Shown here: piece after piece, positions 29,795 through 39,708 of the stretch | How positions within the stretch are numbered: the first letter of the stretch is position 1 | Layout of the letters: each line of letters begins with the position of its first letter | Assembly: GCA_005217565.1 (NCBI GenBank) | Contig: SJCO01000005.1 | Span: forward strand, 372,001 to 436,000 | Length of the DNA stretch: 64,000 nt | Reading direction: 5' to 3' | From: Puteibacter caeruleilacunae | Lineage (GTDB): Bacteria; Bacteroidota; Bacteroidia; Bacteroidales; Prolixibacteraceae | Position numbers and translations under genes: made by a program | The notes under the pieces: model-generated | Told to the model about the DNA's origin: nothing | What the model saw: the letters and a program-made list of their open reading frames with translations, nothing else | Databases searched by the model: none

Positions 29795-30133
29795 CTAGAA
29801 CATCTCCAATTGCTGCGCTACAGGAGGTTTTTCTTTTTCCTTCTGTGCCTGGAAGAGTTCCATATTCCCAAATTGCTTGTCTGTAACCTTTAGTATGCCA
29901 ATATGACCATATTGGGGGAGAGCCATTTTCACCCGTTTAATATGCACTTCGGCGTTTTCACGACTAGGACAGTGTCGTAAATAAATTGAAAACTGGAACA
30001 TGGTAAAACCATCGTTAATTAATTCTTTACGGAACTTAGCTGCAGCCTTTCGTTGGCGCTTGCTATCGGTGGGTAAATCAAAAAATACCATTATCCACAT
30101 GGTTCTATATTGATTTAGTGCATCATGTTTCAT
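29795..30133 (-). CDS. cas2: CRISPR-associated endonuclease Cas2
   Basis: A 112-residue Cas2 starting [20 protein letters not shown]. The ferredoxin-like fold opens with [18 protein letters not shown], where the Asp after FF is the conserved active-site residue, and continues with [13 protein letters not shown] and [18 protein letters not shown]. It forms the Cas1-Cas2 integration complex that inserts spacers. The frame is open 16 codons upstream, but Cas2 homology begins at this ATG, which overlaps the end of cas1 by 11 nt. Confidence 0.92.
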
Positions 30134-31025
30134 GGAATATGGGATATAACAATTTTCTCCTGATTCCTTCGTAGCATTCAAACAGAGAGTTGGTCGTTCG
30201 ACTTGTAGCGACCATTAAGGGACTTTTTCGTTTATCGATATAAACATCACTACTGATAAGCTTCAATATATGTCGTTTCAATTCAGGTGTAAGCTCTTCG
30301 CTTAAGGCTTTCCCACTGATATATAAATCGTAGATAAGTTCGTCGGCATAAGGGCGATATGGTTCCATGATATCGTCGGCCAGACAGTACATGTTGTATT
30401 TGTTGGAATGAAAAATCCCGAATGCAGGATGCATGCCACTACTTACCAATGCCCTCGCTATTATTGCACGAATAATTGCATAAGCATAATTGAGCAAAGC
30501 ATTAGGAGGTTCTCCAAACCGATCGCGTACAAAATCATTACCCAATAATTCTTTCCAGTAATATGCTGCAGCACGACCTTCCACATTCTTTGGATCACCG
30601 GGATCGATTTTATCAATAAGCCAATGCATTCTGTCGGCGTCCTTTCCCAGTCGTTCAAGTAATGCAGCCTGATTGCGTAGCTTGGCTTCAATTGTTTGCT
30701 TCCATAGCTGACGCTTCAAAGGCAAACTAATATCAATTTGCTTTCGCATGCGTTCCGACATTACATGATGCCCATTTATAGGGAGCATGATAGACGCAGG
30801 CAAGTGTTGTTGGTCACAACTAATTACCACAGCAAGATTATCCTGAAGTGCCTGTAGAAGTCGATGAGTCATCGTAATCTGGCTATTATCGAGAACCACC
30901 ACAGCAATATCTTCAACAGAGATGGTCGCCCGGTTGGTTTCTTCTCCCGGGCGATCAACTACCAGTTGTTTATTTTTGTAACTCAGGTAAGCAGGATTAC
31001 CAAAATATACTGTGCGCTTTATCAT
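30123..31025 (-). CDS. cas1: CRISPR-associated integrase Cas1 (type II)
   Basis: A 300-residue Cas1 starting [15 protein letters not shown]; an ATG two codons earlier is also possible. The catalytic Glu is in [11 protein letters not shown] (about residue 148), and the metal-binding His and Asp are in [20 protein letters not shown] (about 205-225). The N-terminal beta domain carries [16 protein letters not shown]. It integrates protospacers into the array together with Cas2. It begins a few nucleotides after the cas9 stop, so cas9-cas1-cas2 is one operon. Confidence 0.95.
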
Positions 31026-31037
31026 AGGCAATTGGTG

Positions 31038-35716: not shown

Positions 35717-35746
35717 TTGTATTTTATATATTCATTTATATCTTTG
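35717..35746 (+). promoter_or_regulatory. tracrRNA promoter
   Basis: A TTG at 35717-35719, 19 nt of spacer, and TATCTTTG at 35739-35746 match the Bacteroidota -33/-7 promoter. The -7 box is identical to the one inside every CRISPR repeat. It lies between the divergent cas9 start and the anti-repeat. Confidence 0.75.
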
Positions 35747-35749
35747 TTA

Positions 35750-35827
35750 TACAATCTGAAAGAAAATCACAATAAGGATTATTCCGTTGTGAAAACATTT
35801 AAAGCGGCTTTTTTAGTCGCTTTTTTT
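35750..35827 (+). ncRNA. tracrRNA
   Basis: Positions 35750-35773 (TACAATCTGAAAG, then AAAATCACAAT) are complementary to the first half of the CRISPR repeat with one mismatch, so this is the anti-repeat. It is followed by AAGGATTATTCCGTTGTG, a nexus-type segment familiar from Bacteroidota II-C tracrRNAs. A terminator hairpin (AAAGCGGC with GTCGCTTT, 35801-35820) and seven T close it. Transcription is rightward, opposite to cas9. It pairs with crRNA repeats read on the + strand. Confidence 0.9.
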
Positions 35828-35855: not shown

Positions 35856-36076
35856 CCTCTAATTTATGGATAATTTTGTTAGATTACCATATAAATTTGA
35901 ATAAGTTTTATTTAGGGGAACTAATATCGAATAATACATAAATACTTCTATATACTTGAAAATAGGATTGCTTAGTTGGATTATTATCGTTGCCGATATG
36001 ACATTGGTATATTTAGAATAATTAAAACCGTAAAATAATGTTGATAATTTCTATGATATATTCAAACTAAAGTAAT

Positions 36077-38430
36077 AATGTTAGGGAACAGCGAGAAGTA
36101 TCTTTGTTGTAAGTAGGCACAACATTTTGAGGTAAAACATTCAGGATTGGTGTGTTGTGATTTGCTTTCAGATTGTATCTTTGTTGTAAGTAGGCACAAC
36201 CCTCGCTTGCTTCGTTATTTGCCAGGATGAGTTGTGATTTGCTTTCAGATTGTATCTTTGTTGTAAGTAGGCACAACCTATTTCAGAAAAATACATAGGG
36301 TCTTCCTGTTGTGATTTGCTTTCAGATTGTATCTTTGTTGTAAGTAGGCACAACAGTGTCTTAAAATGCCTCTTATCCTCCTTGTTGTGATTTGCTTTCA
36401 GATTGTATCTTTGTTGTAAGTAGGCACAACTCTGCTAAGAGTGCTCCAGTTGAATCCAGTGTTGTGATTTGCTTTCAGATTGTATCTTTGTTGTAAGTAG
36501 GCACAACATCATTCACTGAAGTTATATCAACATTTGAGTTGTGATTTGCTTTCAGATTGTATCTTTGTTGTAAGTAGGCACAACATCATTCACTGAAGTT
36601 ATATCAACATTTGAGTTGTGATTTGCTTTCAGATTGTATCTTTGTTGTAAGTAGGCACAACAAATTCAATTTTTATATGCCGTTAGACATTGTTGTGATT
36701 TGCTTTCAGATTGTATCTTTGTTGTAAGTAGGCACAACTCTGCTAAGAGTGCTCCAGTTGAATCCAGTGTTGTGATTTGCTTTCAGATTGTATCTTTGTT
36801 GTAAGTAGGCACAACAAGATTTTAGGGGCAATCCATGTAAGGACCGTTGTGATTTGCTTTCAGATTGTATCTTTGTTGTAAGTAGGCACAACGAAATGGA
36901 GGCGCGTGAGGCGTTGGAGAATGTTGTGATTTGCTTTCAGATTGTATCTTTGTTGTAAGTAGGCACAACACCGAGTCTGAGCATGGTGATGTGGATTTCG
37001 TTGTGATTTGCTTTCAGATTGTATCTTTGTTGTAAGTAGGCACAACTGGATCAATACCATTCACTCCATCACGTGTGTTGTGATTTGCTTTCAGATTGTA
37101 TCTTTGTTGTAAGTAGGCACAACGTAAACGCGTTTATTTTCTTGGTGGTTGTGGTTGTGATTTGCTTTCAGATTGTATCTTTGTTGTAAGTAGGCACAAC
37201 TTACCTTGCATGTCTGGTACCAACCACACGTTGTGATTTGCTTTCAGATTGTATCTTTGTTGTAAGTAGGCACAACATAACGTTTTTCAACTAACTTGAA
37301 AACACTGTTGTGATTTGCTTTCAGATTGTATCTTTGTTGTAAGTAGGCACAACTAATATAGGTAATATTCCGTGGACTAAAGAGTTGTGATTTGCTTTCA
37401 GATTGTATCTTTGTTGTAAGTAGGCACAACACGAATTTAAGGCGGCATTTATGTCAGGTAGTTGTGATTTGCTTTCAGATTGTATCTTTGTTGTAAGTAG
37501 GCACAACTAGAAGAGTTCAATATCCATATGCGCCCTCGTTGTGATTTGCTTTCAGATTGTATCTTTGTTGTAAGTAGGCACAACTTTTCAATTCACAAAT
37601 AATAGTTCTCTTGGTTGTGATTTGCTTTCAGATTGTATCTTTGTTGTAAGTAGGCACAACTTTTTTCGATACTGCATTCATCTTCAACATGTTGTGATTT
37701 GCTTTCAGATTGTATCTTTGTTGTAAGTAGGCACAACTTATTGGATGAAATCATGTTAAACCTTCTTGTTGTGATTTGCTTTCAGATTGTATCTTTGTTG
37801 TAAGTAGGCACAACTAATGCAATTTGAAAGTGCTGTTTGTACCGGTTGTGATTTGCTTTCAGATTGTATCTTTGTTGTAAGTAGGCACAACGCTCAATAT
37901 GCAACACAGATAGGAGAGGCCGTTGTGATTTGCTTTCAGATTGTATCTTTGTTGTAAGTAGGCACAACTGGGGATATCGGCATCAGCGTAACCAGCTTGT
38001 TGTGATTTGCTTTCAGATTGTATCTTTGTTGTAAGTAGGCACAACTAAATTTATCCTCTAGTGTGGCCTTATCATGTTGTGATTTGCTTTCAGATTGTAT
38101 CTTTGTTGTAAGTAGGCACAACTTTGTCATCTGGTGGATTGATAGCCACGTGGTTGTGATTTGCTTTCAGATTGTATCTTTGTTGTAAGTAGGCACAACC
38201 CTCCTCGATGTCTACATCTGCAAACACCAGTTGTGATTTGCTTTCAGATTGTATCTTTGTTGTAAGTAGGCACAACAAGTAATTAAATGAATAGTGAAGA
38301 TACAATGTTGTGATTTGCTTTCAGATTGTATCTTTGTTGTAAGTAGGCACAACGCGGTGTACTTCTTATCCATGCGCACCAGGGTTGTGATTTGCTTTCA
38401 GATTGTATCTTTGTTGTAAGTAGGCACAAC
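36077..38430 (+). CRISPR. Type II-C CRISPR array, 30 spacers
   Basis: Thirty identical 47-bp repeats, the first full one at 36154-36200 and the last at 38384-38430, plus one degenerate repeat at 36077-36123. The repeat begins GTTGTGATTTGCTTTCAG and ends GTAAGTAGGCACAAC; the ends (GTTGTG/CACAAC) are inverted. Spacers are 30 bp, four of them 29 bp or so. Spacer 5 (36431-36460) equals spacer 9 (36739-36768), and spacer 6 equals spacer 7 (36508-36537, 36585-36614). The tracrRNA anti-repeat fixes crRNA sense as the + strand. In the degenerate repeat only the 3' 26 nt, holding the TATCTTTG box, are intact. Confidence 0.98.
36154..36200 (+). promoter_or_regulatory. Promoter inside each CRISPR repeat (first full copy shown)
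   Basis: Within the repeat a TTG at repeat positions 2-4 and TATCTTTG at positions 23-30 are 18 nt apart, matching the Bacteroidota -33/-7 promoter and the layout of the tracrRNA promoter. Transcription would start about 10-15 nt before the next spacer, as in Neisseria type II-C arrays where each repeat drives its own crRNA. Inferred from sequence; start sites are not proven. Confidence 0.6.
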
Positions 38431-38677
38431 CTACTTGCGACAAAGATTTGTATTTCAGGGTAGTATGAAGTGAAATAGGATTGCAGAAAATTACCTTCCA
38501 ATTCATTTCGTTTAAGAACGATAGGCGATTTTATTAATCGTAATTCACTAATGGCAACGGTGAAATGATCGAATTAACACTCAAAATCAATCATTTTATT
38601 CTTAGAATGATTATAAATAAAAGGTCAAAGTAAATTTTTTACTGCAGTCTTAGGATTGGTCAAAACATTCTTCGTTG

Positions 38678-39613
38678 CTACTCAATCCCATTATCTTTAA
38701 AAAAATCCACCTCCTCTAACAATGCAATCTGCTCTTGAGATAATTCTTTATGCTTCCATTTTTGTGCAGCGATCCATTTACCTAATGAGCTATGGGTTTT
38801 ACTGAGTGTTGAAACAAAACTTGTTCCGTACTCTTCTTTGTAAGCTTTCAATTCATCAAAGCGAGTAAACCAGTGTTGGTATCCACGTTCCTTATTGATG
38901 CGGGTACTTGTAGTTTTTTTAGGATCCCAGATAAAGCCAATATCATTGAGTAAACGCTTGCGTTCGGGCGACATGGTATCTTGATTTCGGCGCTGTACCT
39001 TTACGAAATTCAATAATTGTTCATTCGCCCCATAAAATCCCGCTACATAAAGATGCCCATGTTCTTCTTTAAACTCAACCAATTCGGCATATTTATTTTC
39101 CCAGTAATTCAGCGTTTTATTCCTCATGTCGACACCAAGATTTTTGAGTCGCTCGATTTTGGAATACTCCAATTTGCCTTTCCAATACAATTTACGCTGA
39201 TAAACCAACCAGTTATGTAGTTGAGTATCTTCACAACTTTCAGTAATGTGTGCATGTCCAAATTTGACTTTAAAATCATTGAGCTTTGCATACATCTTAT
39301 TCCAGTCGTGCATATCCAATAGTCGAAAGTTAAAACCTATTAATTTTAGAAGACTTTCCCTTCCTGGATCTAACTTTCCTTTGGTATGAACCAATCTTTG
39401 TCGGCGTACCCAATATCCAATAGTTTTTAGATTCTTATAGCGAGCAGGTACATCAGCATGTCCATGTTGTCGTTTAAAATCCACAAGTAAAAGATATTTT
39501 GATATCCAGCGCTGTTCCAATGTATTAGTCATGTCGTGCGAACGCTGATATTCTTGTATCGCTACAGTAATTGATTGATTGGTATCGTAATGTGTTGTCG
39601 TTTTATCTTGCAT
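38678..39613 (-). CDS. Stand-alone protein of four helicase-associated (HA) repeats
   Basis: A 311-residue protein made of four consecutive helicase-associated domains, each about 65 residues with the pattern W-x-Y-x2-L-x2-F-K-x2-H-G-H ... L-G-x-W-x3-Q-R ... L-x2-I-G-F. Examples are LVDFKRQHGHADVPARY with IGYWVRRQRL, and LVEFKEEHGHLYVAG. HA domains usually sit at the C-terminus of large helicases and are thought to bind nucleic acid; no helicase motor is present here. It lies convergent to the far end of the CRISPR array. The ATG at 39613 is preferred over one eight codons upstream. The 247 nt between it and the array are AT-rich and may hold the array leader. Confidence 0.8.
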   Translation of the reverse strand: MQDKTTTHYDTNQSITVAIQEYQRSHDMTNTLEQRWISKYLLLVDFKRQHGHADVPARYKNLKTIGYWVRRQRLVHTKGKLDPGRESLLKLIGFNFRLLDMHDWNKMYAKLNDFKVKFGHAHITESCEDTQLHNWLVYQRKLYWKGKLEYSKIERLKNLGVDMRNKTLNYWENKYAELVEFKEEHGHLYVAGFYGANEQLLNFVKVQRRNQDTMSPERKRLLNDIGFIWDPKKTTSTRINKERGYQHWFTRFDELKAYKEEYGTSFVSTLSKTHSSLGKWIAAQKWKHKELSQEQIALLEEVDFFKDNGIE

Positions 39614-39708
39614 AAAGGAAGTTGATTGGTAAATCACCTACAAAATTATCAATAAGAAATATAAAATCACAGTAGTCGTAGAGTAATTTAAGTATTCCTC
39701 GATAACCC

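Follow-up and report, generated by a model that had tools for sequence, protein, structure and literature searches.

A putative sigma-ABfr-type promoter within the CRISPR repeats of Bacteroidota type II-C systems

The CRISPR array described here belongs to a type II-C locus of Puteibacter caeruleilacunae and its repeats are very probably bifunctional, each one serving as a handle and as a sigma-ABfr-type promoter that would start the transcript of the next spacer. The array lies in the window, i.e. the whole stretch of 64,000 nucleotides that was analysed, and a promoter of this type borne by the repeat is in our opinion the best reading of the sequence data. Repeat promoters in type II-C systems are already known, so that the finding, which as an observation was confirmed to be real, concerns an ordinary-in-kind form of them; the form with a -7 box is apparently undescribed.

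The presence, position, orientation and spacing of the box, its conservation among related repeats and its failure to pair with the tracrRNA can be read directly from the sequences. In the model that we propose, repeat positions 1 to about 25 would constitute the handle for pairing with the tracrRNA, and positions 2-30 would hold a promoter for the main sigma factor of the Bacteroidota (TTG, 18 nt, TATCTTTG), from which the transcript of the following spacer would start. RNA polymerase probably uses the boxes in the repeats, with starts about 3 nt past the box and within the repeat (position 33). The primary crRNA would then comprise some 15 nt from the repeat, followed by the complete spacer and the handle, and with a tracrRNA promoter of the same type the same constitutive polymerase would make both guide and tracrRNA.

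The type II-C locus

The window contains a complete type II-C locus, with cas9, cas1 and cas2 (together in one locus, as judged by profile matches) on the minus strand and the tracrRNA and the array on the plus strand (Table 1). csn2 and cas4 are absent from the operon: the stretch from cas2 to the array holds no further minus-strand ORF of at least 90 aa, and its sole other ORF (111 aa) lies antisense within cas9. The nearby tracrRNA carries an anti-repeat with 96% complementarity to the repeat and has a fold z-score of -3.6; the tracrRNA gene had no match in Rfam. Since pairing with the tracrRNA involves the 5' part of the repeat on the plus strand, the crRNAs are read on the plus strand, away from cas9. 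The position of the decayed repeat suggests that the oldest spacer is found at the transcription-upstream end.

Table 1. Coordinates and strands of the features of the locus within the window
Feature	Position	Strand	Remarks
cas2	29795..30181	-	TIGR01573, 75 bits (cutoff 24.5)
cas1, type II	30123..31031	-	TIGR03639, 306 bits (cutoff 120)
cas9, 1556 aa	31038..35708	-	TIGR01865, 417 bits (cutoff 100); Pfam RuvC_III, HNH_4, bridge helix
Putative tracrRNA promoter	35717..35746	+	TTG 35717-35719, 19 nt, TATCTTTG 35739-35746
tracrRNA gene	35749..35823	+	Anti-repeat 35749-35772, nexus hairpin, terminator-like hairpin 35801-35823 (terminator scan)
Array	36077-38430	+	1 decayed repeat and 30 exact 47-nt copies
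Oldest repeat	36077..36123	+	Initial 21-22 nt decayed; TATCTTTG (36099-36106) and 3' half intact
30 identical 47-nt repeats	36154..38430	+	Spacers mostly 30 nt
-33-type TTG, first full repeat (positions 2-4)	36155..36157	+	Identical in 29 more copies
-7-type box TATCTTTG, first full repeat (positions 23-30)	36176..36183	+	Also in 29 further copies and the decayed repeat
5' leader of the following crRNA, predicted to be transcribed	36186..36200	+	Positions 33-47; start about 3 nt past the box, from the -7 centring (PMC7366714)
Terminator-like hairpin	38407..38447	+	3' half of the last repeat pairs with the first bases beyond the array

Several other properties of the array and its surroundings were observed. 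Two spacers occur twice, one near 36431 and 36739 (within 36430-36770) and another in neighbouring units near 36508 and 36585, which is a sign of unit duplication or recombination. The ORF that adjoins the array (38678-39637) encodes four helicase-associated domains (HA, PF03457) without a helicase. The hairpin at the end of the array comprises 18 pairs, as though the leader starts with an inverted copy of the repeat. Such a leader-repeat hairpin was strong in the window (score 17) and likewise in loci L087, L054 and L034, but we rejected it as a general feature, as the score over 110 loci was 8.9 versus 7.7 for shuffled sequences and 8.4 for a control stretch.

The promoter-like motif in the window

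The sigma-ABfr consensus has been described as centred at -7 and -33 (PMC7366714). A -7 box of the form TAnnTTTG is found in 31 of the 31 repeats of the array, and a -33-type element (TTG or TTTG at 18-20 nt from the box), here TTG at repeat positions 2-4 with a gap of 18 nt to TATCTTTG at positions 23-30, in 30 of them; the decayed first repeat has retained TATCTTTG and lost the TTG. The initial annotation had placed a promoter in every repeat, which is right for the 30 full copies and, in the first repeat, for the box only. Over the entire window the arrangement TTG-18-TAnnTTTG occurs 30 times, each time in the array (shuffled windows: mean 1.6, largest 5). As the repeats copy one sequence, these 30 matches test one coincidence and not thirty; the array copies are not independent and therefore a comparison was made across loci, where 111 repeats provide the independent test. 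The tracrRNA motif given in the same annotation (TTG-19-TATCTTTG) was indeed present. This single match is not significant alone, with 4 in the window against 1.8 expected and 13 of 100 shuffles reaching 4, and the evidence for the tracrRNA box is therefore taken from its position across loci.

Conservation of the box among related loci

Relatives of the Cas9 were found in 31 of 395 genomes drawn from the phylum, in 64 of 395 from the class and in 115 of 393 from the order, and these draws overlap; the relatives with names belong to the Bacteroidota, plus one MAG labelled Chlorobiota. A total of 170 loci was compared (160 fetched stretches, 9 named loci and the window). Script-based detection yielded 117 tandem arrays, four of which were dropped as unlike a II-C repeat (the second of L021, two of L050 and the second of L051), leaving 113 arrays with 111 distinct repeats, among which L106, whose consensus ends at 32 nt, was still counted. 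An information profile aligned on the box is circular for the letters of the box, and conservation was therefore assessed by octamer counts.

In the same loci, TAnnTTTG is about six times denser upstream of ORFs (2.16 per kb) than in coding sequence in sense orientation (0.35 per kb), and an enrichment of TTG before the box upstream of ORFs was observed only at gaps of 18-20 nt. The octamer is also frequent in antisense orientation upstream of ORFs (1.79 per kb), so that in this position the box by itself gives only a weak indication of direction. As the initial annotation stated, TATCTTTG fits the TAnnTTTG -7 box of the phylum, and its distance to the TTG agrees with the 18-20 nt grammar found upstream of genes. 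The tracrRNAs follow the same grammar: anchored on the nexus, an exact box was found 14-36 nt before it in 93 of 143 loci, with few elsewhere upstream, and the TTG gaps of these boxes peak at 18-20 nt (46/93). We rejected a common origin of the repeat and tracrRNA boxes, since identical octamers occurred in 3 of 74 loci as compared to a mean of 4.2 after shuffled pairing; the octamers do not covary and the two therefore share a promoter type and are not copies. From the initial claim that repeat and tracrRNA carry the same promoter the consensus type thus stood, and the identity of the octamer proved to be at chance level.

In the repeats, the exact TAnnTTTG is present past position 14 on the crRNA strand in 60 of the 111 distinct sequences and on the opposite strand in none of the 111; 300 dinucleotide shuffles gave a mean of 2.8 and a maximum of 8. 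When one mismatch was allowed the numbers were 103/111 versus 34/111 on the opposite strand (shuffles: mean 33.7, maximum 47), and in the 3' parts of the repeats no other gapped octamer of this form is as common as TAnnTTTG. When each of the 28 clusters of 3' parts was represented by a single repeat, 7 of these had an exact box (shuffles: mean 0.5, maximum 4). A comparison of box positions across Bacteroidota II-C repeats, proposed in the initial annotation, gave a start at 23 or 24 in 49 of the 60 exact-box repeats, the remainder starting mostly at up to 28, and of the 58 exact-box repeats with a TTG at 2-4, 51 showed a gap of 18, 19 or 20 nt between it and the box. The TTG itself is weak evidence, because GTTG is a common start of repeats and pairs with the tracrRNA. 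The proposal that each spacer has its own crRNA promoter is supported in so far as a box, and hence a candidate promoter, occurs in each repeat of the array in the crRNA direction.

The rule is, as far as the repeat sequences go, common and not universal. The exact box is missing from 51 of the 111 repeats, and related arrays without a box at this position, which were held to speak against the reading, do in part exist: a box-like octamer with its start at 21-28 is absent from 20 of the 111 distinct repeats, including those of the long arrays L054, L057 and L087. Among the repeats without the usual box, a [GT]TCTTTG-like stretch has moved 3'-ward in L103, L143, L149, L151 and L136. Inspection of the repeats of L054, L087, L057, L095, L096, L036 and L132 revealed no recognisable box or shifted stretch. 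Arrays without a box may use another promoter. We also observed [GT]TCTTTGACA near the 3' end of the repeat in L103, L143, L149, L151, L031 and L136, mostly without a box at the usual place; this group may represent a second promoter placement, nearer to the layout of Neisseria.

It is highly improbable that the octamer acts at the RNA level, for instance within the crRNA-tracrRNA duplex or as an RNase III site. In the window the anti-repeat does reach into the box, covering its initial TAT (repeat positions 23-25), but the nTTTG part matches the complement of the tracrRNA at only 0-2 of its 5 bases in 40 of 40 loci.

Repeat length

The initial annotation had further suggested that the promoter explains the length of 47 nt of the repeat, and this explanation was abandoned: a box-like octamer is found at the same place in 36-nt repeats and the extra ~11 nt of the long repeats lie downstream of it. 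Five 36-nt repeats (L010, L023, L039, L066 and L073) carry TAnnTTAG at position 23, of which the TTAG ending is one mismatch from the TAnnTTTG consensus, and the long repeats differ from them on the 3' side. The other four 36-nt repeats have GATCTTTG at 24 (L031), TAGATTTG at 21 (L043) or no box (L095 and L096). In most 46-47-nt repeats the box at 23-24 is followed by 16-17 nt up to the end of the repeat, a distance found in 49 of the 60 exact-box repeats, as compared to 6 nt in the five 36-nt repeats. The promoter would thus fit in a 36-nt repeat, because the extra ~11 nt sit 3' of the box. For Bacteroidetes, II-C repeats as long as 48 bp have been noted (PMC5704556); the repeat of L057 (57 nt, 25 copies, 30-nt spacers) exceeds this quoted upper limit.

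The oldest repeat and the flanks of the array

For the analysis of array ends four of the 113 arrays were left out (one because of its odd period, the other three because they had few repeats), and upstream ends at contig edges were omitted, such that 83 of 109 arrays could be assessed. The transcription-upstream repeat is truncated from the 5' side in 52 of these 83 arrays; at the downstream end this was found in 1 of 108. In the 26 truncated oldest repeats for which the consensus has an exact box (among them L128, which is a whole repeat with scattered changes and not a truncation), TAnnTTTG was kept in 20 and the TTG at 2-4 in only 2. A TTG re-created before the box was looked for and not seen (3/26 at gaps of 18-20 nt). 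Breakpoints spared the box in 23 of 26 cases (binomial p of 4e-4 under a uniform model), a p-value on which we do not rely, given the crudeness of the uniform model and the fact that partial repeats of only a few bases go unnoticed. What is kept in the oldest repeats of Bacteroidota is the -7 box and everything 3' of it, and since the whole 3' part is retained the test is not specific for the box. A recent study (Feussner 2025, PMC12080349) found the first II-C repeat mutated in 60% of systems, mostly in the first 15 nt, explained the 5' loss as the avoidance of a useless guide from the first repeat and stated that the promoter must stay.

These data bear on the possibility that the octamer is kept for another reason, be it recognition or measuring by Cas1-Cas2 at spacer insertion, or plain descent. 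Many of the repeats are related, the distance between box and repeat end is mostly constant, and the free positions of the box are conserved too, being TC in 48 of 60 repeats versus 12 of 93 tracrRNA boxes. The repeats share descent, and the TC is kept beyond the needs of a promoter; it follows that descent or another constraint contributes alongside the presumed promoter function. We nevertheless consider it improbable that such a reason accounts for the octamer: the box is kept in 20 of 26 oldest repeats, which are not the insertion site in two described systems (PMC6008519, PMC8092290), its distance to the end of the repeat does differ between the five 36-nt repeats and most long ones, and the letters under constraint, TA..TTTG, coincide with those of the promoter.

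Equally small, in our estimate, is the chance that transcription of the array comes from outside, either by read-through or from a start between the tracrRNA and the array, with the TATCTTTG of the repeats unused or of minor use. The interval from tracrRNA to array does contain two TAnnTTTG boxes in the proper orientation (TAATTTTG at 35871 and TAAATTTG at 35892), some arrays are without any box, and in F. columnare the coverage of the array was low, with 8 reads, too few to place starts (PMC8092290). However, neither of the two boxes has a TTG at 18-20 nt, the tracrRNA is ended by a terminator-like hairpin ahead of both, and the box is mostly kept in the oldest repeats. The flanks are not enriched for promoters across loci either: the full TTG-N18-20-TAnnTTTG was found in sense orientation at 2 places upstream of 76 arrays, and entering the array from the other end at 1 place in 110.

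Comparison with known systems

The repeat promoters of Campylobacter jejuni and Neisseria meningitidis are of the sigma-70 type and are found in 36-nt repeats. Repeat-embedded crRNA promoters in type II-C were reportedly described by Zhang in 2013. As in the two species mentioned, for which such promoters were described (Dugar 2013, PMC3656092), the repeat would carry the promoter of the next spacer, the array reads toward the newest spacer and the system is a minimal cas9-cas1-cas2 with a tracrRNA. In C. jejuni and N. meningitidis the repeat has its -10 box in the 3' part and transcription starts in the spacer (PMC3656092), whereas here a Bacteroidota -7 box lies mid-repeat and the predicted start is within the repeat. 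A start in the spacer is typical of the Neisseria/Campylobacter kind of promoter and yields a shortened guide for which 5' trimming is not needed.

Closer to the present case are the Flavobacterium systems, which are of the same phylum and subtype, have the same direction and for which a promoter in each repeat was also proposed, based on a TTG near the 5' end of the repeat, in Flavobacterium columnare (PMC8092290) and F. psychrophilum (PMC10309648). For these repeats the TTG alone was named in the text available, and TAnnTTTG was named for the cas9 of F. psychrophilum; our analysis adds the -7 box, and it is this box rather than the TTG that the truncated oldest repeats keep. The II-C system of Riemerella anatipestifer (PMC5006608) resembles the present one in its 47-nt repeats, spacer length and gene set, and a repeat promoter was reported there as 'not found'. 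In the accessible text of PMC12080349 no promoter motif is named for the mutated 'extra repeat', and the words Bacteroid, Flavobacter and TAnnTTTG are absent from it. A statement on TAnnTTTG within a CRISPR repeat was not found in the literature searched, which covered few subscription papers.

Implications

With a start 3 nt past the box, transcripts from repeats of 45-49 nt would include 10-15 repeat-derived nt ahead of the spacer, and those from 36-nt repeats 3-6 nt. The Cas9 of F. psychrophilum works with spacers of 22-30 nt and best with 24-26 nt (PMC12609912), on which ground some trimming of the crRNA may be expected. We tentatively view the repeat as a set of three modules, a reading that we hold to be possible and somewhat less probable than its opposite, in which a Cas9 handle and an overlapping housekeeping promoter are followed, in 46-47-nt repeats, by an extra helical turn (~11 nt) that is transcribed as 5' leader. 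If so, primary crRNAs would, unlike those of Neisseria and Campylobacter, start in the repeat and have the full 30-nt spacer with a repeat-derived 5' tag of 10-15 nt, and this tag would have to be trimmed off or tolerated by the Cas9.

The analysis removes one explanation of the long repeats of Bacteroidota and places the extra turn downstream of the putative promoter. For a large family of Cas9 systems, in which previously the TTG alone had been proposed or no repeat promoter had been found, it names a candidate promoter element, and the predicted guide starts bear on the natural guide length and on the use of these large Cas9s.
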